This document shows positions 1,735 to 21,488 of a DNA stretch of 25,971 bases, piece by piece (position 1 is the stretch's first letter; each line of letters begins with the position of its first letter). The notes under the pieces are model-generated. The model was given only the letters and a program-made list of their open reading frames with translations. It made no database searches and was not told the DNA's origin. Source of the stretch: a virus; the IMG/VR virus record IMGVR_UViG_3300032313_000135, positions 1-25,971 of that record; one strand, given 5' to 3'. Made by a program: the position numbers and the translations under genes.

Positions 1735-1871
1735 AAACCCTCCGCAGAACTTGTTGGTGGATTAAAAAAACTTCTTGATCCGCAAGCCATGCAATATGTT
1801 TCAAGATGTCCAATTGTTGTATACTGTCTATCAAGAAACATTCTTCCTTTGCATTTTTTACATCTTAGCAT
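1680..1871 (-). CDS. Zinc-ribbon protein, 63 aa
   Basis: The protein has two Cys pairs, CKKC at residues 4-7 and CMAC at residues 27-30, separated by 19 residues with aromatic and Thr content. This is the spacing of a four-Cys zinc ribbon. The C-terminal third is basic (LLKREVSRAKATM). Zinc ribbons of this size usually bind nucleic acid or RNA polymerase, but nothing here tells which. The start shares one base with the upstream stop (TAATG, 1873-1869). The last 18 or so codons overlap the helix-turn-helix gene in another frame, so the C-terminus is constrained by two coding frames. The metal site is well supported; the biological role is not. Confidence 0.75.
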   Translation of the reverse strand: MLRCKKCKGRMFLDRQYTTIGHLETYCMACGSRSFFNPPTSSAEGLWLLKREVSRAKATMSSL

Positions 1872-2314
1872 TAGTTTGGTATACCAATGATAATCAGATT
1901 AACATTGAGGGAAGCCGTACCAGATGTATTAAACTTAACAAATCCGCTAACTCCAGATGTAGATGGATCATTTAAAACAACAGTTACAGTAGCCCCTGCA
2001 GGGGTCTGGCCTACATTTATTGGAGTTGCAGTTACAATTGGTGGAAACCTAAACTCTCCTGCAAACGAATGAGAAAAGTTGAGTTGCTCACCAGGAGTAA
2101 CAGGCTGGCTACTTGCAACTTTCACAAGTCCACCAATAACTCTAACTTCTGTGACTTTTCTATTTTGTGGACCATTGTCTGCTGTTTGAACTGTTACGTA
2201 GTCATATGTTGCTGGAGATACTTCTTTTGCTAAATCATTTACTGCTTGTGCTAACTCATAAACATAGGTTACATCTAAGGGTTGACCACGTTCAGGTAGG
2301 GGTATTTTTGCCAT
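1871..2314 (-). CDS. Small tail-associated protein with H-type-lectin-like beta domain
   Basis: This is a 147-aa protein. Residues about 15-35 are helical (VTYVYELAQAVNDLAKEV), which could form a trimeric coiled-coil stem. Residues about 75-147 are beta-rich, with a pattern reminiscent of H-type lectin domains in tail fibres: a PGEQLNFSHSF strand, a FPPIVTATPIN strand, a GVSGFVKFN strand and a final hydrophobic LNVNLIIIGIPN strand. This similarity is by eye and only suggestive. It is the last gene of the tail-tip cassette, so host-surface or glycan binding is plausible. The ATG has no Shine-Dalgarno; instead a TGG-TATAAT box ends 6 bases upstream, so it may be read from a leaderless mRNA. Fibre or tail-tip accessory is the best guess. 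Confidence 0.72.
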   Translation of the reverse strand: MAKIPLPERGQPLDVTYVYELAQAVNDLAKEVSPATYDYVTVQTADNGPQNRKVTEVRVIGGLVKVASSQPVTPGEQLNFSHSFAGEFRFPPIVTATPINVGQTPAGATVTVVLNDPSTSGVSGFVKFNTSGTASLNVNLIIIGIPN

Positions 2315-8765: not shown

Positions 8766-9427
8766 TATGCCTCTTCCAGTGTTAAGGACACATTCCAGAA
8801 GTCAAAGTTTAAACCACTTCTTTTTTGAACTGAGTAACTAAAGTCTGAGAAAAACATTTCAATTACTTCGTTATATTTGTTTGTATTTTTAAACCTTTCG
8901 TCTGAGTTAACAGTTTCAAAAACATCTTTAAAGTTTGTATATTTATCGTAGGCTAAGTAGACCCAGAAAGATCCACTGTGATTTTTATACCAGTCAAGGA
9001 GTTCTACTCCACCTGCTCCACCATCTGTAGTAAACTCTAAAGGGTTTGTTCTTATCTCTGGAATTTTTGTCATATTAGGATTTCCATCAGAATCAAAGCC
9101 AGCATAGGTATCAAATGCTCTAGACGGCAACATATCCCAGGATACTGTTAATGTTAGTTTATCTGCAGTATGATAAGATCTCATACGGCCATTGATCATT
9201 CTCTCCCGTTTTTCAATTCTGGTGGTCTTAAAGTCTATGGGTGACCTATTGTTATCAGAAAGGATTAAGAACTCGCCATAGCCATCTACAGAGGCTCCTA
9301 ATGACCCAATCTCGTCTCCTTCAGGGATGTGAAAACCATTTACCTTGATACCCTCGTTATCTGCAAAGAGGATCCCTTGAGGTCTTTGATATTTCTTACG
9401 ACCTGCCATATATGCATTAGTTGCCAT
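8765..9427 (-). CDS. Distal-tail-like minor tail protein
   Basis: This is a 220-aa protein encoded directly after the tape measure gene and before the hub, the classical place of the distal tail protein that joins tube and tip. It is beta-rich, with KLTLTVSWDMLPSRAF and SFWVYLAYDKYTNF, and ends in a strand pattern FDFWNVSLTLEEA typical of tube-like folds. The N-terminus is basic (YMAGRKKYQRPQ). Length fits the single-domain distal tail proteins of siphophages. The ATG shares one base with the tape measure stop (TAATG at 9429-9425), and GGAG lies inside the tape measure C-terminus, so translation is coupled. Function is inferred from gene order and general pattern. Confidence 0.76.
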   Translation of the reverse strand: MATNAYMAGRKKYQRPQGILFADNEGIKVNGFHIPEGDEIGSLGASVDGYGEFLILSDNNRSPIDFKTTRIEKRERMINGRMRSYHTADKLTLTVSWDMLPSRAFDTYAGFDSDGNPNMTKIPEIRTNPLEFTTDGGAGGVELLDWYKNHSGSFWVYLAYDKYTNFKDVFETVNSDERFKNTNKYNEVIEMFFSDFSYSVQKRSGLNFDFWNVSLTLEEA

Positions 9428-12400
9428 TAGGTTCTAACTCCTCTCATCTTTTGTGCGTCAACGCTCTTTATCTGAGCAATAACGGTTCTTGCAATTTCAT
9501 CTGGGTTTGATTCAGATTTAACGTTTACACTAATACTATAATTATACACTGCGTCACCTGCTGCTTGGCCATTATTCATTGCCTGCATCTTTCCTATACC
9601 GTGGGACTGTACAGCAAACTTATTCATTACAAACTCTCCAGGAGTGAGCATTGCTGGAACTGTGTCAGTTCCCATGTTAAATTTCTTTTGTGCAAACTGA
9701 GAAGAAACAAGGCCTCCAGTAGCATAGCCTGTCCACTTGTATATATTTCCTGACTTTGATGATGTTTCTTCATCTAGAGCGTTAGTTTTACCACCAACTT
9801 GCCATGCCACTTGTTCGTTAGTAAATCCAAGAGACTTTAGGGCTTTTCTTGCATTATCGACTATTATGTTTTGGTCTTTCATATTTCCTTGAGCAACTTC
9901 TACATTGTCCCAAGCAGTTAAAAGTTCTATTTTTGCATCTGGCCTAGTTTCTTTTAAAAACTCTTCTCTTCCATCAGTATCTTTATAATCCCATGTTTTT
10001 CTTGCAGCACTTAAAACTTTTCCTGCAGCCATTAAAGACTCTCTGTTTGTTTTAAAGTCTTTGTCTGCATTTTTTAGTATGCTAAAAATATTTTGCAATT
10101 CAGCACTAATTTCTTTTTCTTTTGCTGCCTTGAATGTTTTTGCTCCTTCTGAGTCCATTGGCGATGCATTAATATAACTAGGTTTATCTGCAGTACCAAT
10201 GTTCCTTTGTGTAAAAGATGTTGCATACTCTTTTGCTTTTACGTATTCGTCCCAAAGTTTTCTGGCATCTTCTTTAGCCTTTCCTGAAAGTTTTTTAATA
10301 TCGCTTTCTTTAACAACCTTCATAGTCACAAGTTTTTGCTGAAGTTGAAATGCTTCTCTTTCTGCTCTCTGTTTTTCTAGTGTTATTGAAAGTTTTGATC
10401 CAGCAGAAACTGCTGCTTTATCTGTTTTTGCTAATTTTGGTGCTGCAGCAGGTTTGATTGGTACATACTTAAAGGATCCTGGTTTATACCCTGCTGTTCC
10501 TGGAACATTCTGACTTGAAGATCCTGGCACTTGGGTTCCAGGAATTGGAACTACATTGTTTGACCCACCAGTGGTTGTGCTATTATTTCCAGTTCCTGAC
10601 CCACCAGTTGTAGACTTTCCACCAGCATCACTTGTTACTGGTCCTTTTATTTTAGCAGAATTATAAATATCATTTGCAGCATTTTGTGTAAGATTATTGT
10701 AATTTGTGTTTGGATCATCTGCTGCAGAAGTTGGTCCTGTTATTGGTGCTTTTGGTGCTCCATCTTTCCACTTTTGATTAAATCCACTTTGTAAAGTATC
10801 TACTAGCCACCATTGATTTTGTGATTTTGCAGACTCAATTGCTTTTAGTTCTAGGTCATACTGCTCTTTTTTAATCTTATACTCAGCCTCTGCTGCTGCT
10901 TGTGCTGCTTTAGCATCTGCTGCTTTCTTTGCTGCAAGTTCTTCAAGTCCCTGTGCTGTTGTTTTAAATTCTTGCCTTAATGCATCCATTGCTGTTCCAG
11001 ATGCTGCTGCTGAAGCAGAAGAATATTTAGACATTGTGTCCTCTATCTTGCCCCAGCCTTTTTCAATCTCATCAACTGAAGCAAGCATTGAACCCATTAG
11101 TCTATCAAAGTCTTGTCCAGCAACGGCGGAAGCATCTATCTTGGCTCCAATAGCATCCCAGGCATCCTTTGTTTGTCCAAGAACAGTTATACCGCTTACT
11201 AATTTTTCTATAGCCCGTTCATCAGTTGCAATCGCAACATTGTTTGCATCAATACTGTATTGTCTTGGCTTTATTTGTTTTTCTGTTATATCGTAAATCT
11301 CATCTTCTTGTTTACGGATAGCCTCTTGTGCTGCTTCTCTTTTTTCTTCAAGGTCGTAAATCTTATCGCTTGTATCTTGTATTTGTTTTAGGATTTCAAG
11401 TCTTGTAAGCAACTTACCATTTACTTCTGTTGTTGCTGTATTTTCTAGAGTATAGATTGTCTGAGCATTTTGATACTGTCTCTCAGTAATTTCGTCTTTG
11501 CTTAGTCCTGAGACCTCGCCTCTCAAACTATCTATCTTATTCTTACGAGATAGTTCTAAAGCCTTAGAAGCATTCTCTGCATTACGTGCTGCTTGGGCTG
11601 CTCTTATAGCCTGGACTGCACGGGCTGCTGCACCAATATCTCCCTTAGAGAGAGCATCTGCTAAGTCAAGTTGCTCCTTTTCTTGCTCAACAATCTGACT
11701 CTTAATTTCTGAAACCTTAGCAAGTGCTTCTGCTTGTTCGTCATATCTCTTATTAATTTCTTCTGCAGCATGATTCATTTTTTCCATATCATTAGACAAG
11801 ATTGTGTTTTCTGCATTGATCTCTGCTATAGGTCTTTCAAATGCTACCTCAATGACTCTTTGAAGATCGTTTATGCTTTCTTGATAGGCTTCAAGAGGAC
11901 GAGTGATATCCATCTCAAGCGCTCTTGTTGCTTTCTGAATAGCCTCTTCAATTGGACGTATCTTGCTAAAGGTTATTTGTTGAATCTCAAGTTGTAAATC
12001 TTCATTTGCATTCTTAAGTGTTTTAATATTTGCAACCATAGATTTAGATGCTGCACTAGCACCAGTTCTAATTAACGCTTCCTGAACTGAGAACATCTTG
12101 TTAACAAGTTCCATACCTGGTGCTGCTGCTGCAGCAAAATCCCCAGCATTAAACTTAGCACGAATTTCTACAATCTTTTCATCTTTTATACCCTCAAGGT
12201 ATTCAGCAATTGCCTTAGAGTCTATCTTTCCATCTTCTAGGTCTGCCATTAATTGCTTGGCCAGCGCTGGGTCTGAAAGAACTGTTGCAATATTTTCAGC
12301 AGACATACCTGATATCTTTAATGCAGAAGCGAGTTTAGGGAAGGTGTCGTTCTTAAATTTAAAGTCTGCATTCTTCTTTAATAGGTCTGCCATAACTGCA

Positions 12401-15400
12401 GCCTTCTCTGTTGCATTGGCAGCATTTATTGCATCATCTGAGAACTTCTTTAGGTCTGTTCCTGCTAATGCTGAAGAGGCTACTGAGGCTGCTAGTGCTG
12501 AATCTGAAACTAATTCCAATGCAGTTGCTGTATCTACTCCTGACGCCTTTAATTTATTAAATGCTTTAAATTGATTATCAGCATCAGTGATTACCTTTAC
12601 TTGTGCAATATTAAACTTATCAAGTGGGGCTTCATTGTATGCTGCAATGACAGCCTTACCCTCTGCGGATATTCCAGTAATCCTTGTTTTATCATATACA
12701 ACATTGCCTTTTTTATCTTTTAATACATTACCCTTTTTATCTTTCTTGGCTGCATATGTAAAGACTCCTTGCTGTCCAGCCTTCTTGCTATTAAGATCGG
12801 CCTTTAGTAACTCATCAAACTGTTCTGCATCTAAACCAGCAATATAGTCTCTAAATTCTTCTGGAACCTTTAGTGCAAGAAGTTTTTGTTGAACACCATC
12901 AAATAGTTTAAACATATTTGCAACATTCTTCTTTGCAGCAGGACTATTAAATGCTGCAAGCATGGACTCAATTGGCTTCTTGGCATTAAAAGATTGGTCT
13001 CTTACCATCTTGATACGCATAGCAAGTGAATCAAGGAAGTCTAGTGGATCATCTTTCTTTCCTCCTGAACCAGGAGTTTTGGCAGGTCCTGCATCAACTG
13101 AAGTAACGCCACTTGCATAGGTAGGAACTAACTTTTCAGCAGCCATCTGCTCAGGAGTTAGTTTTAAGAATGCTGCTTTAAACTTTGCTTCTGCCACTAG
13201 GAGAGCGTCTGCTCCTGCTGCAATTGTTCCCTTTGACTGTGCAAGCCAGGCCTGGTTTCTTGCATAAAGTTCTGCTGCTGCTTCTTTTTGCTCTTGAGTA
13301 AGGATTGATTCATAGGCAAATTGTGTTTGAAGTTTTTGTAAATACTCTGCCTGTTGCTCTAAGTTTAGGTTATTGAACTGAGCCATTCTTTCTTCATTGG
13401 CTTGTAATGCTGTAATGGCTGCATTTTCTTGTGGCCCCAATTTTTTGGCAGCCTCAAGATCCATCTTCTTATCGCCTTTTTTCTTTTGCTCTTCTTTAAG
13501 TTTTTCAATACCTTCCATCTGGCCCTTAAGAACTTCAAGGCCTTCTAGACCAAGGGTAGTCAACAAAACCTCCATGTCAATGGTTGTTCCATCCAGAGCC
13601 TGAATACCCTTAAGTGCTTCCATAATTGCATCAAACTGTCCTGGGTCTGTTTTTGTTAATGCAATCTTGGTAACCATATTTGTTGCCATTTTTTTATCTT
13701 TATAGCCTGCAAACATGTTTAGGAGTTCTTTTGTTTTTGATGTTCCATGAATTCCCACACTTGCATTAAAAAGTAAGTCTAGATTATTTAGTTGTCCAGA
13801 AAAAAGTTCTAAGTAGTTGTTTGCTTCTGATGGACTTAGAACTTTACTTCCAACAAGCATTTCCCATTTTGCTTGGAAGGTTTGTGCTGTTTTATTATCC
13901 TTTAAGCCATTAATTGACTTATTGTCTGCAAAGTCTTCTGATGTATTTAAGAATGTTTTTGATGCTTCTTCTTGGTCAGTTCCCTTATAGTTTGTTAATA
14001 GTTGATTTCTGGATGCATCAAAGTAAGCATCTTCTTTACCACTAAACTTTGAACCACTGTAAACCTTTTCAAAACTCTTTTGCTGTAAACCAATCTGTGT
14101 AAGAAGTAGGCCGTTCATTGTATTTGTATCTATAACATTTTGAGCAGTAAGGTCGGATATCTTCTTCTCAATTTCTAGTTTCTTTGCTGCGTTTGCAGTT
14201 GCTGCTAACTCTGCCTCAAGTTTTTTCTTTTGATTTTCATATTCAACTTGTACCTGATCTGCCATCATCGTGGCCATCTGAATATTATTCATGTTATATG
14301 CTGCGATGGATGCAATGTTTTCTCTTCGATTTCCCTTACCTGCTGCAACGTCATCTTCTGCTTTGTCAACTCTATTGTTTGCGTTAGCCATTATTAGCGC
14401 TCTAGTATCCATAGGACTATTCTTTAAGTCTTCACCGTTTGGACCTAGAAGTGCAGATAGTTGTCCAACAATTTGCATCTCAATCTTTTGATCTTTTAGT
14501 TGCAAAGCAAGTTCTGCAGCAATACTGTTTGCTGCCTGTGCATCAAGTACTCCGTCTGCAACGGCTGTAGCAAGTTTTAATGATAGATCATCAACTGCTC
14601 TTGCGGATCCAAACTTCTTAGCGTTGTCTTGAAATAACTTCTTTTCTTTTTTACCAATGTCTGTACCTAAGAACTTATTACCAAATGTATTATCAATTTT
14701 AATTTCTTCATCATACTTACCGTATTGGCTAGTTGATCTACGCTTATCCATGATTTCAGATGCACCAACACGTCCTGCCATCTCACCTATTGACTTTAAG
14801 CCATCTCTTGTTGCTGAAAGATCTGTTGCAAATTGTGCTGCTTTTTTAGCCATATCATTAAAGTGCTTGTTAAGCATATAGGCTCCTGCACCTAATGCTA
14901 CAACTGCTCCTACTGCAAGTCCTATTGGTCCTGTACCCGCAATCATTGGAGCAAACTGTGCTACCGTTGCTGCTGTACCTAATGCTGCCGTTACCTGTGG
15001 TGGTGCTCCTGCCATACCTGCGACCATTGCTGCTGTTCCTAGGCCACCAGAAACTTTACCAGAAAACTTGGAAACCTTCTCTTTACGCAAGCCACGCTTC
15101 TTTTTCTTTAATTGGCTTTCGGTAAGAGTTGTTGGCTCCCCTGTTTCTGGGTCAAACAGTATTTGTCCCTTTTTGTTTTTTGTATAACCAACCTGTCCTG
15201 GATCATCTGGGCCATTAGTTCCTGGGTCTCTTCCCATTGCTTCGTCATATGCTCTTGTATAGTCGTATGCCTTGGTCTTATCAATATACTTGCTATCTGA
15301 CTGTGCTCCGTCAGGAATAATTGCACTTGGATCTTTCATTCGTGCAGCAAGTTCTTGTCGTCCCAACTCTCTTATCTTGCGCTTGTCTTCTTCAATGTCT

Positions 15401-18400
15401 CTATTTATGTCAGCAATGTTTTCTGAAGAACCTGCAATATCATCTTGTGCTATACCTGTTGTACCTGTTGACTGAAGAACATCATTCATATTTCCTGTAG
15501 TAGCATCTGTTATCTGTGCACCAGTTAGCAGGTTTCCTGCAGTTTGTGTTTGAGCATCAACTGCTTCTCCAGTTACGTTTGCAAGTTCATCTGTCTGTTC
15601 TGCAACCATAAGAGTTGAGTCTGCTGTATCTTCTGTACCTTCAACAATGCGTCTTAATCCATCACCTTGTTCTTGTGTTCCGTTAGATACAACTTCATCA
15701 TTCTTGTCTTGAATTTTTTGAACTTTACCTGGTTCTTTTACATCATCTTCTGATATATCTATCCCGCTCTCAAGTTGAATTGCCTCAATCTCTGCTTCTG
15801 CTGCCTTTATTCTTAACTCTGCTGCTTTGGCCTCTAATTCATCCGCCTTCTTTTTAAGTGCTTTAGCGTTATCAGCAGTGTAAATGTTCTTGCCATCTTC
15901 ACGGGCTGCAACCTCTTCCCACTTTGCTGCTTCAGTTCTAACTCTTGCTGCTGCTGCTTCTGCATCAGATGCTTCCTTATTTAGTCTGTCTGCTTCTTCA
16001 CGAGCCTTACCAATATTAATGGTGTTACCCTTAATGGTAACTCTTGACTTACTTTGATCCCTGATCTGTTGTACAACCTGTGCCTGTGCCGTTGCAGCCT
16101 GCTCTGTACTTACTGCTAAATCTTCTGCTGCTGCTTCTGTTCTTGCTGTTAAAGCAACTGTTGAAGAAGGTCCTGATACTGGAGGAGTTCCTGGACCACC
16201 ACTAATGCCTGCTTCTTTGGCACGTTTTCTTCTTTGTCTATCTTGTGATTTAAGAATTTGTCTTTCTTCACTAAATTCTGGGGTATTGATATCATCGTAG
16301 AAAGATTTATTGTCAAGGTCCATCTTGTCAACTCTTGCCTGTGTTTCTGCTGCTGTTGGTACTGCAGCAGACCCTAGTTTTTTAGCCTGAGAAGAGACTT
16401 CTGCGGAATGTTCTTGCATTCCAATAACAATTCCGTCTGCAACACTTTTACCAATCTCCCTACCCTTTTTAGAAGGAGAACCTCTGTCTACTCCTTCTGG
16501 ACCTTCGGCTCCGTCAATTACTGCTTGACCAACCTCTGCTCCTGCTGCTGCTGCAGCAGCCGTGTCTTCTGGTGTAACCTCTACTGTTGGTGCAGGGGTT
16601 ATTATTTGTCCTGCACTAAGTCTTTCTCTATTTCTTAGTTTTTCTACAATTGCTCTTTCAGTATCTGTTACTCCACCCTTTTCTGATGCAATTGGCTCAG
16701 AATAACTTGTTCCAACCTCTCCACTTTTTATGTGTGCAAATGTTGGTTTACTTCCTTTTTCATCTGTTTGTTCTGGTGGTGTTATGCCTCTTCGTGCATA
16801 CTCTCTTTCTGTATTTCTCTTTGTTTGATCATCTAGATACTCTGACATGGAGTGTCCAGGAATTGCAACTCTTTCTGTTCTTATATCGGTAATTCTTTCA
16901 TTACCATCTTCATCAATTCCAGTCTCAACTCTTTTGCGGTTCATAGCAACTGCATCTCGACCAGGATTTTCTGGTGTTCCTAAATCTGCATCAAATATTC
17001 TTCGTGCAGCAATCCTCATCTTTTCTGCTTCATCAGCAGTAACCTTTAAATCTCTTTCTAGACTGTCTATATATGCAACCATCTTTGGGTATGCAGTTTG
17101 ACCCGCTTCGCTAACATCTGTTACTCCTGGAACTACTTCTCTTGCAAATATGTTTGCAATCTCATCAAAGTGAGGGGCTAGGTGCTGGTTAGATTTAGTC
17201 CACATATCAAATGACTCGTCTGTTTGCCTTGCAATGCCATCAAGGGCCTGCATCTGAGTTACCATTGATCCTGTTGTTGCTACTTTAAACCTGTCTGATG
17301 CACCTACTATTTCTCCTGATTCATCTTTTTTAGTAATAAATCTAGAATCTCCTCCAGCAATAGTAGATCCTTGAACTGGACGGCCTTGTATGTTTCCTGG
17401 CATCATGATAGCAGCGCCAGACATTAACTTTGTATCTTGTTCACCACCTGCTACTCTACCCGTATGTGGTTGTGTAATTGTATACTTTGGCTTCCTTGGG
17501 TGTGGGTGTTCGTGAAATTCTCCAGTACCTTTGTGATATCTATTTACAGATCCATTTTGAAGTGCTGCTACTAATTCTGGATTTTCTTTTGCAGTATCTT
17601 TTGTAATAACAACTTCGCCAGGAGTTAGTAATGCTGGGACAGTATCTTTATTTCCTGTACCTGGAACGACTCCACCTGTTGCAAACTTTGTAGGAGGTAG
17701 TCCTGCTACTGCTCCTGCTGGTCCTGGTACAGTATTGAATAATCCTGGAGATGATTGAGCAAGGGCTCTTGCCTGACTTGCTGCTGCGCCGTAGGCTGCT
17801 GCTAATGCTTGAACTGATGCTGCTTCAACATTAAATGTAGAAATTAATTGGCTATGAGATGTATGTAAAGCATTAGACTGTGCAAGGTTTTCAATCTGTT
17901 GGTTGGTTAGATACTCAAACCCTCCGCCAAGAACATTGTTTGAACCATTAAGTTGAGCAACTCCGCCACGGAGTTTTGCAAACAACTTGATACCATTTGC
18001 AACAAAGTTCATTAAAACACCAAATGTCATTAATAGAACTGGAGCAAGTCCTCCAACAACTCCAACAACAACTGTTATAACTTTTTTAGTTCCATCGCTT
18101 AAAGTGTTAAATTTTTCTAGGATTCTTCCAACAAAACTAACTATAGGTGTTACTGCTTCTAAGAATGCTTTACCTATTGGAACAAGTTGGAGTTTAATAT
18201 TTTCCATAGACTTCTTAAACTTGTTACCAGTCATGTCTTCAACCTTGCCAAGTTCTCGCTCAGACAAGATTGCTAATTCTTCAACTGATGCTCCTGCAAG
18301 TCCAAGTGCTCGTGCAGCCTGTGAAGAATCTTTTGTAACGTTCTGGAATAGTGTAGACAGACGAGCAAACTGGAACTTACCAAATAGTTGTTCGATTGCT

Positions 18401-19734
18401 CTTGCACGGTTAAGAGGATCAAGTGTATCTAATGCTCTTGCAAATCCTACTACAGTTCCTTTTAGATCTCCCTTGTTTGCTTCAACAAGTCCGTTAATAT
18501 TAATTCCCAGTCCCGCAAGAAATTCACTAGCCTTCTTAGAAGGGTTAATCATAGAAGCAAGACCAGACTTAAGTGCGTTAGCACCTTCTGATGCGTTGAT
18601 TCCACCTTCCTTCATTGCAGTCATAAAGAATGCAAGGTCTTCTACGTCACCGCCTAGTTGCTTAACAACTGGTCCAGCCTTTGGAATAGCAATTGTTAGA
18701 TCTTCAATAGACAAGACTGTCTGGTTTTCTACTGCGTTAAGGAAGTTAATTTTTCCTGCAAGATCTTCTGCTGCGATTCCAAAAGCATTTGTTAAAGAGA
18801 TTGTTGTCTCTAGCGCTTGCTGTTGTTCAACTTGTCCAAGAACGGCAAGGCGTGTTGCTTGAACTATTTGAGCATTAAGTGCATCTCCAGTAAGACCCAT
18901 CGCTGCTGCTGTTCCAGCCATTTCTACAGTATCTTTTGCTGCAATACCAAACTTAGTAAACTCTTTTGCAAGTCTCTGAACATCTGCAATAGCCTTGTCA
19001 GTTGCATCTGAGTTTGTCATCATGTCTCCATATACTCTGGAGAACTTTGTTATTGCCTGCTCCATTTCCATGAATGTTTTTGCTGCAGTTGAGCCTAGAA
19101 TTGTAAGTGGAATAGTCAAACCAACCATCAACTGGCGACCTGCCCACTGAGTATTCTTACCAAAATTCAGAAGTTGAGTTGAGCCTTGACTTAATAGTTT
19201 ATTTAAAAATTGCTGTCTTTGTGCAGCCATTTGCATACGTGTTGCATAATCTGTATACTGACCATTGACCATCTTTAGGTGCTTTGGAATAACCTGAAGA
19301 GTCTTGATCATATCTCCATTTGCAGACTGCATCTGGATATACTGAGCCTGTAGAAGTTTTACTCTATCTTTACTAGCACGTGTTAATGTCTCACGCTCTT
19401 GTGCAAACATCCCTTTAAATACCTTGGTATTTTGGGTGGCTGCTGCTGCGGTGTACCTAAAGTACTGTCGCATTGATAGTTGATTTTTTTCAAGTGCTTG
19501 TGTAAAAGAAGATGTACTTGTGGCTACATCCTTTTGAGTTGCAACAAACTTTCCAGTTGCATTAATAGCCTGCATTAACTGGCTATTAAGGCCCTTCTGG
19601 GCATTCATTGCTGCAACGTTACCCTGAGTTAGGGTTTGATTAAAACGGCTAAGTCCTGCCTGTAACTGACGTAATTGTGCTAAGGCTTGGCTGGTATCAA
19701 AATTAATACCTATATTTGCGTTTACGTCAGCCAA
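9427..19734 (-). CDS. Tail tape measure protein, TP901 type, 3435 aa
   Basis: This protein sets tail length and passes into the host at infection. Residues about 220-490 match the TP901 tape-measure core (EQAITKFSRVYGDM, ETTISLTNAFGIAAEDLAGK, LTIAIPKAGPVVKQLGG, FAFFM-like and NASEGANALKSGLASM segments). Hydrophobic stretches at about 545-590 and 1555-1625 could insert in the membrane. A GSPSKKGREIG motif lies near 1085, and coiled coils near 1230-1310 and 2575-2900, including LADALSKGDIGAAARAVQAI. A Gly/Ser/Thr/Pro linker spans about 3035-3105. The motif DTVPA(L/M)LTPGE occurs twice, near 696 and 3358. I see no lysozyme or NlpC/P60 motif. Start is TTG (19734-19732) with AGAGG 8 bases upstream and an in-frame TAG just before. 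At about 0.15 nm per residue the tail would be about 515 nm. Confidence 0.96.
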   Translation of the reverse strand: MADVNANIGINFDTSQALAQLRQLQAGLSRFNQTLTQGNVAAMNAQKGLNSQLMQAINATGKFVATQKDVATSTSSFTQALEKNQLSMRQYFRYTAAAATQNTKVFKGMFAQERETLTRASKDRVKLLQAQYIQMQSANGDMIKTLQVIPKHLKMVNGQYTDYATRMQMAAQRQQFLNKLLSQGSTQLLNFGKNTQWAGRQLMVGLTIPLTILGSTAAKTFMEMEQAITKFSRVYGDMMTNSDATDKAIADVQRLAKEFTKFGIAAKDTVEMAGTAAAMGLTGDALNAQIVQATRLAVLGQVEQQQALETTISLTNAFGIAAEDLAGKINFLNAVENQTVLSIEDLTIAIPKAGPVVKQLGGDVEDLAFFMTAMKEGGINASEGANALKSGLASMINPSKKASEFLAGLGININGLVEANKGDLKGTVVGFARALDTLDPLNRARAIEQLFGKFQFARLSTLFQNVTKDSSQAARALGLAGASVEELAILSERELGKVEDMTGNKFKKSMENIKLQLVPIGKAFLEAVTPIVSFVGRILEKFNTLSDGTKKVITVVVGVVGGLAPVLLMTFGVLMNFVANGIKLFAKLRGGVAQLNGSNNVLGGGFEYLTNQQIENLAQSNALHTSHSQLISTFNVEAASVQALAAAYGAAASQARALAQSSPGLFNTVPGPAGAVAGLPPTKFATGGVVPGTGNKDTVPALLTPGEVVITKDTAKENPELVAALQNGSVNRYHKGTGEFHEHPHPRKPKYTITQPHTGRVAGGEQDTKLMSGAAIMMPGNIQGRPVQGSTIAGGDSRFITKKDESGEIVGASDRFKVATTGSMVTQMQALDGIARQTDESFDMWTKSNQHLAPHFDEIANIFAREVVPGVTDVSEAGQTAYPKMVAYIDSLERDLKVTADEAEKMRIAARRIFDADLGTPENPGRDAVAMNRKRVETGIDEDGNERITDIRTERVAIPGHSMSEYLDDQTKRNTEREYARRGITPPEQTDEKGSKPTFAHIKSGEVGTSYSEPIASEKGGVTDTERAIVEKLRNRERLSAGQIITPAPTVEVTPEDTAAAAAAGAEVGQAVIDGAEGPEGVDRGSPSKKGREIGKSVADGIVIGMQEHSAEVSSQAKKLGSAAVPTAAETQARVDKMDLDNKSFYDDINTPEFSEERQILKSQDRQRRKRAKEAGISGGPGTPPVSGPSSTVALTARTEAAAEDLAVSTEQAATAQAQVVQQIRDQSKSRVTIKGNTINIGKAREEADRLNKEASDAEAAAARVRTEAAKWEEVAAREDGKNIYTADNAKALKKKADELEAKAAELRIKAAEAEIEAIQLESGIDISEDDVKEPGKVQKIQDKNDEVVSNGTQEQGDGLRRIVEGTEDTADSTLMVAEQTDELANVTGEAVDAQTQTAGNLLTGAQITDATTGNMNDVLQSTGTTGIAQDDIAGSSENIADINRDIEEDKRKIRELGRQELAARMKDPSAIIPDGAQSDSKYIDKTKAYDYTRAYDEAMGRDPGTNGPDDPGQVGYTKNKKGQILFDPETGEPTTLTESQLKKKKRGLRKEKVSKFSGKVSGGLGTAAMVAGMAGAPPQVTAALGTAATVAQFAPMIAGTGPIGLAVGAVVALGAGAYMLNKHFNDMAKKAAQFATDLSATRDGLKSIGEMAGRVGASEIMDKRRSTSQYGKYDEEIKIDNTFGNKFLGTDIGKKEKKLFQDNAKKFGSARAVDDLSLKLATAVADGVLDAQAANSIAAELALQLKDQKIEMQIVGQLSALLGPNGEDLKNSPMDTRALIMANANNRVDKAEDDVAAGKGNRRENIASIAAYNMNNIQMATMMADQVQVEYENQKKKLEAELAATANAAKKLEIEKKISDLTAQNVIDTNTMNGLLLTQIGLQQKSFEKVYSGSKFSGKEDAYFDASRNQLLTNYKGTDQEEASKTFLNTSEDFADNKSINGLKDNKTAQTFQAKWEMLVGSKVLSPSEANNYLELFSGQLNNLDLLFNASVGIHGTSKTKELLNMFAGYKDKKMATNMVTKIALTKTDPGQFDAIMEALKGIQALDGTTIDMEVLLTTLGLEGLEVLKGQMEGIEKLKEEQKKKGDKKMDLEAAKKLGPQENAAITALQANEERMAQFNNLNLEQQAEYLQKLQTQFAYESILTQEQKEAAAELYARNQAWLAQSKGTIAAGADALLVAEAKFKAAFLKLTPEQMAAEKLVPTYASGVTSVDAGPAKTPGSGGKKDDPLDFLDSLAMRIKMVRDQSFNAKKPIESMLAAFNSPAAKKNVANMFKLFDGVQQKLLALKVPEEFRDYIAGLDAEQFDELLKADLNSKKAGQQGVFTYAAKKDKKGNVLKDKKGNVVYDKTRITGISAEGKAVIAAYNEAPLDKFNIAQVKVITDADNQFKAFNKLKASGVDTATALELVSDSALAASVASSALAGTDLKKFSDDAINAANATEKAAVMADLLKKNADFKFKNDTFPKLASALKISGMSAENIATVLSDPALAKQLMADLEDGKIDSKAIAEYLEGIKDEKIVEIRAKFNAGDFAAAAAPGMELVNKMFSVQEALIRTGASAASKSMVANIKTLKNANEDLQLEIQQITFSKIRPIEEAIQKATRALEMDITRPLEAYQESINDLQRVIEVAFERPIAEINAENTILSNDMEKMNHAAEEINKRYDEQAEALAKVSEIKSQIVEQEKEQLDLADALSKGDIGAAARAVQAIRAAQAARNAENASKALELSRKNKIDSLRGEVSGLSKDEITERQYQNAQTIYTLENTATTEVNGKLLTRLEILKQIQDTSDKIYDLEEKREAAQEAIRKQEDEIYDITEKQIKPRQYSIDANNVAIATDERAIEKLVSGITVLGQTKDAWDAIGAKIDASAVAGQDFDRLMGSMLASVDEIEKGWGKIEDTMSKYSSASAAASGTAMDALRQEFKTTAQGLEELAAKKAADAKAAQAAAEAEYKIKKEQYDLELKAIESAKSQNQWWLVDTLQSGFNQKWKDGAPKAPITGPTSAADDPNTNYNNLTQNAANDIYNSAKIKGPVTSDAGGKSTTGGSGTGNNSTTTGGSNNVVPIPGTQVPGSSSQNVPGTAGYKPGSFKYVPIKPAAAPKLAKTDKAAVSAGSKLSITLEKQRAEREAFQLQQKLVTMKVVKESDIKKLSGKAKEDARKLWDEYVKAKEYATSFTQRNIGTADKPSYINASPMDSEGAKTFKAAKEKEISAELQNIFSILKNADKDFKTNRESLMAAGKVLSAARKTWDYKDTDGREEFLKETRPDAKIELLTAWDNVEVAQGNMKDQNIIVDNARKALKSLGFTNEQVAWQVGGKTNALDEETSSKSGNIYKWTGYATGGLVSSQFAQKKFNMGTDTVPAMLTPGEFVMNKFAVQSHGIGKMQAMNNGQAAGDAVYNYSISVNVKSESNPDEIARTVIAQIKSVDAQKMRGVRT

Positions 19735-19747
19735 GGACTATACCTCT

Positions 19748-20071
19748 TTACTTGATTGAGTTTAAAAGACCTGATGCGTCAGAAAGTTGCATTCCTGAAG
19801 CAGCATCAATGATCTTATAGACTGTAGGAAGATCTAAATTTTCCTCAATCGCCTCTCTGTTGTCTGCAATTGCAGGCAAGTATTGTTTAAATGCAATTTG
19901 TACACAGTCAATAAGAATGTCCATTGACTTGCTATTGTCGTCTGCAACTTCTTGCAGTTTAGTAAAATGTTCCATAAAAGGCTTAAGCAAAGATATCCTT
20001 AGTGGCTTAACCTCAAATTTTGTTCCATCCATAAGGGACAGTTGGTTCTTGCTTTCTACTTCTTTAACCAT
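19748..20071 (-). CDS. Short tail assembly chaperone (G-like), 107 aa, start revised
   Basis: The product resembles the N-terminal half of the 227-aa chaperone encoded just upstream. Shared positions include L-x-DG, PL-x-I-x-x-L, M-x-x-F, a C then I, KQ-x-x-P-x-I, EE, and the Y-x-I-x-D-x-x-x-G-x-x-x-x-D-x-S end. Such proteins coat the tape measure protein before tube polymerisation. The frame opens at ATG 20083, but the bases just after it form GGAGG (20081-20077), an ideal Shine-Dalgarno 5 bases before a second ATG at 20071, while the first ATG has no site of its own. I therefore start at 20071. It lies 13 bases upstream of the tape measure TTG start. It appears to be a separate gene for the short form that most phages make by not frameshifting. 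Confidence 0.82.
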   Translation of the reverse strand: MVKEVESKNQLSLMDGTKFEVKPLRISLLKPFMEHFTKLQEVADDNSKSMDILIDCVQIAFKQYLPAIADNREAIEENLDLPTVYKIIDAASGMQLSDASGLLNSIK

Positions 20072-20076
20072 GATTT

Positions 20077-20081
20077 CCTCC
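20077..20081 (-). promoter_or_regulatory. Ribosome binding site deciding the start at 20071
   Basis: GGAGG on the minus strand, spaced 5 bases (AAATC) from ATG 20071. The alternative ATG at 20083 begins 2 bases before this site, so initiation there would use the site itself as coding sequence. This is the basis for the revised start. Confidence 0.65.
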
Positions 20082-20095
20082 ATTGTAGTTGTTTA

Positions 20096-20104
20096 ATTAT
20101 ACCA
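20096..20104 (-). promoter_or_regulatory. Extended -10 promoter before the short chaperone
   Basis: TGG-TATAAT (TG at 20104-20103, TATAAT at 20101-20096) lies in the 48-base region between the two chaperone genes. Predicted transcription would start near 20089 and give a leader of about 18 bases carrying the GGAGG site. The nine bases are identical to the box at 2329-2321. No convincing -35 is visible. A promoter here would let the short chaperone and the tape measure be expressed apart from the long chaperone. Confidence 0.45.
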
Positions 20105-20119
20105 TAAACAGGCTTGTTT

Positions 20120-20803
20120 TTAGTCTACTTTTTCGTAGTCTAGCCCCATACCAATTCCAAATCCAGCCTTCTGTGCACTAATACCCTGAAGGGCAACGAT
20201 GTCTTTTGCATTTGCTGCTTGGCCACCACTGAACACTCTAGCCTTCATTTCTTCCCAGGCATTTCCTTTTCCAGAATTTTTGTCTAGGTCGACACCCTGC
20301 ATTGCTGCAAGGAATTTCTTTTCATCGTAGTTTAATTCTCTGCTAATAGAAAGAGTTATCATTAACTCTGGCATAGACAAGGATGTTTCTAGTTCGTTGT
20401 AGTCTTTCCAGATCCCCAACAAAAAAACTTCTGACTCTAATTTTGCAAGGTCAAGGTCATCCCAAGATGATCCACTATCAACTGCTTGCTTTTTTACAGG
20501 TTCTTCTGACTTATCATTAATCTTAATACCAGCAGTTATATCTAAGATATCATAAATGTCTTGTAGGCTAACATATTCTTCTAGCATCTCTTGGGTTTGA
20601 GTAATCTCTGGTCTAAACTGTTTCATACAAATTCTTGCACATTTTGACAGCGCTATAATTGCTTCCATATCCCCTTGAGCATTTCTAACTTCATCAAAGT
20701 TATCCATTAACTGCCTAAGATATTTTATTTTTAGGGGGGATAACTCTATCTCTACTCCATCTTGAAGAGTAATATTTTTTGTATTATAAACTGTTGTTGC
20801 CAT
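20120..20803 (-). CDS. Long tail assembly chaperone (fused GT-like), 227 aa
   Basis: Residues 1-98 form a G-like domain (LQDGVEIELSPLKIKYLRQL, MKQFRPEI, DIYDILDITAGIKI). Residues about 120-227 form a T-like domain with SMPELMITLSISRE and KKFLAAMQGVDLD, a pattern known from frameshift-made GT products of siphophage chaperones. Here both domains are in one uninterrupted frame. The codons for V103-K104-K105 (GTA AAA AAG) contain the slippery heptamer A AAA AAG at the domain boundary; a -1 slip would add Ala-Ser-Ser and stop at TGA 20480-20478, giving 108 aa. GT-type proteins bind tape measure and recruit tube subunits. The ATG has no Shine-Dalgarno, and a TGT-TATACT box ends 6 bases before it, so leaderless initiation is likely. 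A homopolymer miscall in the A run would change this picture. Confidence 0.88.
   Translation of the reverse strand: MATTVYNTKNITLQDGVEIELSPLKIKYLRQLMDNFDEVRNAQGDMEAIIALSKCARICMKQFRPEITQTQEMLEEYVSLQDIYDILDITAGIKINDKSEEPVKKQAVDSGSSWDDLDLAKLESEVFLLGIWKDYNELETSLSMPELMITLSISRELNYDEKKFLAAMQGVDLDKNSGKGNAWEEMKARVFSGGQAANAKDIVALQGISAQKAGFGIGMGLDYEKVD
20489..20495 (-). other. Candidate -1 ribosomal frameshift site (A AAA AAG)
   Basis: On the minus strand the frame reads CCT GTA AAA AAG CAA GCA GTT, so the heptamer A AAA AAG is in the X XXY YYZ register used for -1 slippage; the same heptamer works in E. coli dnaX. After the slip, the next codons are GCA AGC AGT TGA. The shifted product would be 108 aa, close to the 107-aa paralogue. 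No strong upstream Shine-Dalgarno-like stimulator is seen. The nearest downstream hairpin is weak (TCATC/GATGA with a TTGG loop, 20470-20457). Confidence 0.5.
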
Positions 20804-20809
20804 CTATAT

Positions 20810-20818
20810 AGTATAACA
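20810..20818 (-). promoter_or_regulatory. Extended -10 promoter, probable leaderless start for the long chaperone
   Basis: TGT-TATACT (TG at 20818-20817, TATACT at 20815-20810) is followed by 6 bases (ATATAG) and the ATG at 20803. The spacing is the same as at the gene starting at 2314. There is no Shine-Dalgarno. The box lies directly after the hairpin that ends the tail tube transcript, as if to restart transcription at a new level. Confidence 0.5.
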
Positions 20819-20822
20819 GAAA

Positions 20823-20848
20823 GGCCCAGACTTTTTAGGATCTGGGCC
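20823..20848 (-). terminator. Rho-independent terminator-like hairpin after the tail tube gene
   Basis: The minus strand has GGCCCAGA, a 10-base loop and TCTGGGCC: a perfect 8-bp GC-rich stem starting 22 bases after the tube stop codon. It is followed by TTTCTGTT, which is only moderately U-rich, so read-through into the chaperone and tape measure genes is likely. Partial termination would favour the high-copy tube protein. Confidence 0.72.
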
Positions 20849-20870: not shown

Positions 20871-21488
20871 TTATGCTGCGCCGACTGTGCGGTCTACGAT
20901 CTTACCGTATGATCCGTTGTCGTTTGGAAGAAGACGGAATGATACTTCGAACATTGTCGCTTCGTCACGCTTTGCTGATACTGAAACGCTTTCAATTGAA
21001 AGTGCACGGTATGCAACGTAAACACGCTCCACGTTAAGTGATGCGTCTCCAGTTCCTGGTCCAACTGCAATCAAACCACGCTCTACTGGCACATCGCCAA
21101 TATCGCCTGCTGAAAGATTAAGTGTTGGGTGTGTAGCAACTGTTGTTAGATCGCTTTCCTTGCCTGCAAGGGCAAATAGAAGGTTCTCTAGTGTTGATTC
21201 TGCGAATGTAGTATTTAGGTTTACCTGCATGCCTTGCTTAAATAACTTAGCAACGTCAAGTACCTGGTCTACTGCTACTTCACCGAAATCTGGCTGGAAT
21301 TGGATTTCCAAACCATTCATTGTATATCCAACGTTACGGAAGTCTGCATCATTTGAAAGGGTTTCCTTGTATGATGTTCCTGCTGCGAATGCTGGACGAT
21401 CTGCGTCTGCAAGTGCGCCGTCTTCATATGTGAAGAGGGCTGCTGCTCCAACGATAATATCGTTTGAACTACCACGTGTATATGCCAT
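20871..21488 (-). CDS. Major tail tube protein
   Basis: This 205-aa protein forms the stacked rings of the tail tube. It sits between the tail terminator and the chaperones, the standard place for this gene. The fold is mainly beta, with an N-terminal arm (MAYTRGSSNDIIVGAAALFT), a long polar loop around residues 25-55, and C-terminal strands (SVSVSAKRDEATMFEVSFRL) typical of tube proteins. Codon use is strikingly different from the tail-tip genes, with many C/G-ending codons, as expected for a very abundant protein. The leader carries a strong GAGGTGA Shine-Dalgarno about 7 bases before the ATG. A TATAAT lies further upstream and a terminator-like hairpin follows the gene, so it may be expressed partly as its own transcription unit. 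Confidence 0.9.
   Translation of the reverse strand: MAYTRGSSNDIIVGAAALFTYEDGALADADRPAFAAGTSYKETLSNDADFRNVGYTMNGLEIQFQPDFGEVAVDQVLDVAKLFKQGMQVNLNTTFAESTLENLLFALAGKESDLTTVATHPTLNLSAGDIGDVPVERGLIAVGPGTGDASLNVERVYVAYRALSIESVSVSAKRDEATMFEVSFRLLPNDNGSYGKIVDRTVGAA

Follow-up and report, generated by a model that had tools for sequence, protein, structure and literature searches.

A phage clade in which two genes probably stand in for one frameshifted tail chaperone gene

In the phage DNA described here, a single recoded tail assembly chaperone gene appears to have been replaced by two genes, the first locked to the long product, with the G and T domains joined in one frame, and the second locked to the short product, with a G domain only; we put the probability of this reading at about 0.83. 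It is built on the observed paralogy of the two genes, the fusion of two reading frames, the co-occurrence of fusion and second gene in relatives, the direction of the change, and an asymmetry in start signals and codon usage, and from these we infer the start sites, the ratio of short to long protein and the chaperone function itself. A conserved frameshift in phage tail genes was reportedly set out by Xu et al. in 2004. In lambda, gpG is made in an approximately 30-fold excess over gpGT, with G binding the tape measure protein, T binding the tail tube protein, and neither product remaining in the virion; the frameshift is widely conserved among long-tailed phages, T4 excepted (PMC5009743).

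The window, by which we mean the whole stretch of DNA analyzed, is a viral contig of 25,971 bases with a G+C content of 38.5%. Its structural genes are encoded on the minus strand and run, in the direction of reading, from the gene for a capsid protein through several head-tail genes to those for the major tail, long, short and tape measure proteins, and the position of the long and short genes between those for the major tail and tape measure proteins is kept in relatives. The features needed for the argument are, in the same direction:

20871..21488, minus strand: major tail protein gene (phrog_2175, 7e-33; the homologue is annotated as major tail protein in Streptomyces phages)
20823..20848, minus strand: terminator-like hairpin after the major tail protein gene and ahead of the long gene, a 9-pair stem followed by a T-rich tail
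20810..20815, minus strand: putative -10 hexamer TATACT with TGT before it (extended -10), 6 nt before the long-gene ATG
20120..20803, minus strand: long gene (GT), an open reading frame of 227 aa with the G and T domains in one open frame
20489..20495, minus strand: zero-frame A_AAA_AAG heptamer within the long gene, probably incidental, rarely conserved in fused relatives
20096..20101, minus strand: putative -10 hexamer TATAAT with TGG before it, 24 nt before the short-gene ATG
20077..20081, minus strand: Shine-Dalgarno sequence GGAGG of the short gene
19748..20071, minus strand: short gene (S), a 107-aa paralogue of the G domain, read from an ATG with a Shine-Dalgarno sequence
9427..19734, minus strand: tape measure protein gene, 3435 aa (phrog_10030, tail length tape measure protein, 2.5e-96)

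By the usual rule of 0.15 nm of tail length per tape measure residue, the 3435-aa protein encoded at 9427-19734 on the minus strand predicts a tail near half a micrometre long.

The short gene is a paralogue of the G region of the long gene, and chance is excluded as an explanation of their likeness. The sequence-only reading had aligned the short protein with residues 11-98 of the long one, with one single-residue gap; BLASTP reproduces the alignment and the gap (30% identity, 57% positives, E 4e-17), but the span is wider than first given, residues 5-104 of the 111-aa short form lying against residues 1-99 of the long protein. The 111-aa form is the product of the first ATG in the frame (20083-19748), while the ATG at 20071, which is preceded by GGAGG, gives the 107-aa form used here. 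Searched against the whole record, the long protein matches itself and the short gene only (8.8e-15). Profile searches place both proteins in one family, phrog_10504, at equal strength (2.9e-18, and 3.1e-18 for the short protein), as the proposed kinship would have it. In the long protein this family covers residues 1-106, in keeping with a G-type chaperone domain at residues 1-100, and a second family, phrog_10474, found in the long protein only, covers residues 131-219 of a T domain that extends from about residue 116 to 227. Pfam returned nothing above its cut-offs for either chaperone, and a sequence search of solved structures with the two proteins gave no match.

Predicted folds point the same way. 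The AlphaFold models of the two chaperones, with mean pLDDT values of 81 and 85, have in the shared region two strands followed by four helices, in the same order, and both match one and the same viral BFVD entry named tail assembly chaperone (for the short protein, TM 0.73 at 1.5 A). The HK97 tail assembly chaperone, 2ob9, is a high-ranked solved structure for both models, first for the long protein (Z 4.3) and fourth for the short one (Z 4.2), but these similarities are weak and below the safe level, and there is no match in sequence.

To follow the distribution of the two genes, viral contigs were scanned six times with the long and short proteins, the T domain, the major tail protein and near relatives as seeds, and a seventh time with the G protein of locus L402. 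More than 550 loci came out of these scans, and profiles of G, S, T and the major tail and tape measure proteins served to score their reading frames. A search of genome contigs for relatives found none. Among 337 distinct related loci, all of those that reach the tape measure gene are in one of two states, and none is mixed. In the fused state (196 distinct loci with the tape measure gene, and one further locus with fusion and S but with no tape measure gene in view), G and T share one frame and a separate S follows; in the split state (131 distinct loci with the tape measure gene), T lies in the -1 frame of G and there is no second copy. Thus, among distinct loci reaching the tape measure gene, S is missing from no fused locus in which it would be visible and is present in no split locus. 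The whole records agree, with exactly two copies in the 8 fused ones (98-117 kb) and exactly one in the 12 split ones. Co-occurrence in relatives had been put forward as a check on the sequence-only reading, and it holds throughout: the fused gene always comes with the short gene, and relatives split in the -1 frame never carry a second copy. Several apparent exceptions were discarded on inspection. Four fused loci that seemed to lack S (L038, L050, L219 and L247) are all contig ends, and L205, which had seemed split, is an in-frame fusion whose alignment had run past the stop. At L267, the 502-nt gap from T to the tape measure match conceals no short gene and is accounted for by an earlier start of the tape measure frame.

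Among named phages, the closest are about 127 Streptomyces phage records, to which are added T-domain matches in a few Rhodococcus phages; in the Streptomyces phages for which the taxonomy was read, it is Stanwilliamsviridae. Homologues of the chaperones are annotated as tail assembly chaperones in named phages. Members of this family such as Faust, Yaboi and EGole share homologous G, T, major tail and tape measure genes with the window, and in the records read the order is the same: major tail, G, T, tape measure. They differ from the window in having G and T in two frames, with T in -1 and overlapping the end of G, and in having a single G copy; in Yaboi, NiceHouse and Francesca, the G and T genes are annotated as joined frameshift products. 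The short protein, searched against all phage records, matched one place per record, and no second G copy was found in the Streptomyces phages.

What remains of the recoding signal differs between the two states. In the first survey, most of the 89 distinct split loci carry C_CCA_AAC/T/A in the G/T overlap. The split relatives with an S-like G, which carry G_GGA_AAC or C_CCA_AAC/T at this position, include the nearest of all, namely L397, L402 and about 30 more distinct loci (e.g., L413, L419, L432 and L434); each has a single S-like G with T in -1, one group having G_GGA_AAC and another C_CCA_AAC/T. Since the heptamer differs between these nearest groups, the slip site has evidently changed while recoding was kept. 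In the subfamily of Streptomyces phages that includes Yaboi and EGole, T is in -1 yet the canonical heptamer is absent: the Boydwoodruffvirinae loci L164, L166, L167, L168 and L169 have no canonical X_XXY_YYZ in the overlap, and these phages likely use a non-canonical slip site.

Among the fused loci, a slippery heptamer near the G/T boundary is absent from 118 of 150, close relatives of the window included, and A_AAA_AA[A/G] is found there in 22 of the 150. The window itself has A_AAA_AAG, and this supplies what is still the main rival to the two-gene reading: that recoding has been inverted, with the long protein as the zero-frame product, a -1 slip near codon 104 producing a 108-aa G protein, and the short gene as an extra. 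The heptamer is indeed in the correct frame at the G/T boundary, a -1 stop follows four codons later (the slipped product would end after KKASS), A_AAA_AAG is the shift site of dnaX (PMC5009743), and the 22 loci retain some version of it. The likeness to bacterial dnaX is that there, too, a long zero-frame product (tau) is accompanied by a shorter one sharing its N-terminus (gamma). It does not extend further, as the heptamer is not conserved among most fused relatives and a separate gene is on hand to supply the short form, being present in every fused locus with enough contig. We consider inverted recoding improbable, and in the window A_AAA_AAG is probably a Lys-Lys pair rather than a kept signal. 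Neither of the two familiar arrangements describes the fused loci, which show neither two products drawn from one gene by a programmed frameshift, as in lambda, nor a conserved slippery heptamer with an early -1 stop, as in dnaX.

The history of the switch was read from a concatenated tree of the major tail protein, T and the tape measure N-terminus with 130 representatives. In this tree, the fused loci form one clade (95), the S-like split loci adjoin it (joint node 100), and a single change of state suffices; a tree of T and the tape measure protein, or of the major tail protein alone, needs two. A reversion to the split state at L397 and L402, suggested by their position inside the fused clade in the major tail tree, was rejected, as the T, tape measure and concatenated trees all place these loci outside. 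Taken as a single event, the switch means that the perfect co-occurrence reflects descent and not many independent trials, so that the association by itself is no proof of replacement, and the case has to rest on the asymmetry conserved within the clade.

That asymmetry begins with the two G copies themselves. The G/S tree separates a clade of long-gene G domains (100/100) from a clade of S proteins (100/97) and joins S to the G of the S-like split relatives (98/94), which indicates that the short gene resembles the ancestral G and that the long-gene G is the derived copy, although testing does not reject the alternative with long-gene G and S as sisters (AU p 0.445, and 0.164 in another test). 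S is more conserved than the long-gene G domain in 82% of pairs. By eye, its C-terminus has a short tail after a conserved LxD motif, as does the zero-frame end of the split G. Retention of ancestral-G features by S is the pattern expected if two copies divide two ancestral products between them. Across relatives, dN/dS for S is about 0.09, a sign of purifying selection, and synonymous divergence over the same locus pairs is 0.45 for S vs 0.9 for the long gene, the lower value being as expected for a highly expressed gene.

The start signals of the two genes are sharply different. For scoring, a -10 hexamer had to match TATAAT at 5 of 6 positions or better, and a Shine-Dalgarno sequence had to reach a duplex energy of -6 kcal/mol or lower. 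Of the 151 distinct regions upstream of the long gene, 104 have the hexamer precisely at positions -12 to -7 relative to the ATG, vs 0.8% of shuffles; at a spacing of 5-7 it is present in 114 of the 151, preceded by TGn in 114/114, and none of the 151 has a Shine-Dalgarno sequence at the cut-off. Where a -10 element sits 6 nt ahead of the ATG, the transcript is expected to be leaderless, and the spacing at the long gene puts the predicted transcript start on the ATG. With the -10 so placed and the Shine-Dalgarno sequence absent, the long gene looks to have a leaderless-type start. Leaderless messages are common in actinobacteria, where they can be well translated. The window has another start of this kind, at a 147-aa gene (1871-2314, minus strand) that lacks a Shine-Dalgarno sequence and carries TATAAT 6 nt ahead of its ATG, so the long chaperone gene is not alone in this.

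For the short gene, 163 of 164 distinct relatives have a TATAAT-like hexamer at a distance of 18-45 nt upstream (exactly TATAAT in 159, and preceded by TGn in 159), and 158 of the 164 have a strong Shine-Dalgarno sequence (-6 kcal/mol or lower). The G genes of split loci have the same arrangement, with a distant -10 in 76 of 81 and a Shine-Dalgarno sequence in 75 of 81, so that the short gene, as judged from these motifs, keeps the ancestral arrangement of a consensus TATAAT, a leader and a strong Shine-Dalgarno sequence. Neither pattern is seen at the major tail and tape measure genes, and the Shine-Dalgarno contrast does not depend on whether starts are chosen by closeness to the profile or by best score. 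Because a generic promoter scan gave no -35/-10 pair at the long or the short gene, both putative promoters rest on the conserved extended -10 motifs. The sequence-only reading had supposed separate promoters and different ribosome access, and both proposals fare well: each gene has its own conserved extended -10, differently placed, as a putative promoter, and the long gene, with a leaderless-type start and no Shine-Dalgarno sequence, stands against a short gene with a strong one. Hairpins like the one before the long gene in the window were seen by eye in most of the listed relatives, and no terminator was found between the long and short genes, which suggests that a message begun at the first promoter should extend through the short gene as well.

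Codon usage shows the same asymmetry. On a codon index taken as the log-odds of major-tail-like vs tape-measure-like codons, with each locus left out of its own reference, the medians are -0.03 for S, -0.38 for the long-gene G domain and -0.27 for T, and S exceeds the long-gene G domain in 76 of 76 loci. In the split loci, the median for G is -0.04 and G exceeds T in 35 of 40. A pooled codon reference gives the same picture as the leave-one-out one. Third-position G+C is alike in S and T (0.31 and 0.29) and yet their indices differ, which means that G+C is not the cause of the difference. Together with its low synonymous divergence, this codon usage fits a high output of S and a low output of the long gene. 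For the latter, codon usage and a non-consensus -10 would be the main grounds, given that leaderless messages can translate well.

A course of events consistent with all this can be proposed. In an ancestor, a single gene would have given both products through a -1 ribosomal frameshift, which the split relatives still appear to use. The G region would then have been duplicated, one copy being fused in frame to T with loss of the slippery site, and the other keeping the G stop and the G-type start signals. In the present arrangement, the hairpin would end the major tail protein transcripts, the extended -10 of the long gene would give a leaderless and weakly translated message running on into the short gene, and the short gene, with a second, consensus promoter and a strong Shine-Dalgarno sequence, would yield more of the short protein than there is of the long. 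On the model of gpG and gpGT in lambda, coating of the tape measure protein would be the task of the short form, and recruitment of the major tail protein that of the long form.

A different fate for the second copy is that the short gene has taken on a new function, for example at another part of the tape measure protein, or solely as a hetero-oligomer partner of the long protein. The two copies have indeed diverged, with just 30% identity and separate clades, and the tape measure protein, at 3435 aa, is unusually long. But it is the short gene, and not the long one, that keeps the ancestral start signals, the codon usage and the closest likeness to the nearest split G, and the gene is absent from all split relatives; we find a new function about as hard to credit as inverted recoding. 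That the short gene is a redundant leftover of the duplication, as its small size and partial sequence overlap with its neighbor might suggest, can be dismissed for a gene that is intact in 196 of 196 distinct fused loci, evolves at the dN/dS given above and has a conserved promoter motif and Shine-Dalgarno sequence.

The replacement of recoding by two genes, the central proposal of the sequence-only reading, is thus largely supported, by co-occurrence, by separate -10 elements, by ribosome access and by codon usage, and we infer roles like those of gpG and gpGT for the short and long proteins, with a ratio set by the two genes. Like the lambda pair, the two genes of the window lie between the major tail and tape measure genes and encode a short product of G alone and a longer G-T product with the G domain in common, and there would be the same need for more of the short form than of the long (30:1 in lambda; PMC5009743). 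Unlike lambda, the window has two genes and not one recoded gene, its short form is a diverged paralogue and not an identical N-terminus, and the ratio would come from promoters and translation starts and not from slippage. We found no prior description of duplication replacing chaperone recoding in the openly available literature that was searched.

The tail chaperone frameshift is a textbook case of recoding, and here is a clade that appears to have dropped the recoding and kept both products. Probably, duplication and subfunctionalization resolved a frameshift gene, with a ratio that now comes from two types of start and from codon usage and that has been stable across a diverse clade. Recoding would then be one way to fix the ratio, and not a requirement for identical N-termini. 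With separate promoters, the ratio of short to long protein could also change in the course of infection. For annotation, the lesson is that pipelines seeking a slippery site will miss or misname such gene pairs. For the biology of tail assembly, the clade and its neighbors are a natural experiment, near relatives with and without recoding and a single switch between them, in which two types of start can be compared with the efficiency of a frameshift.
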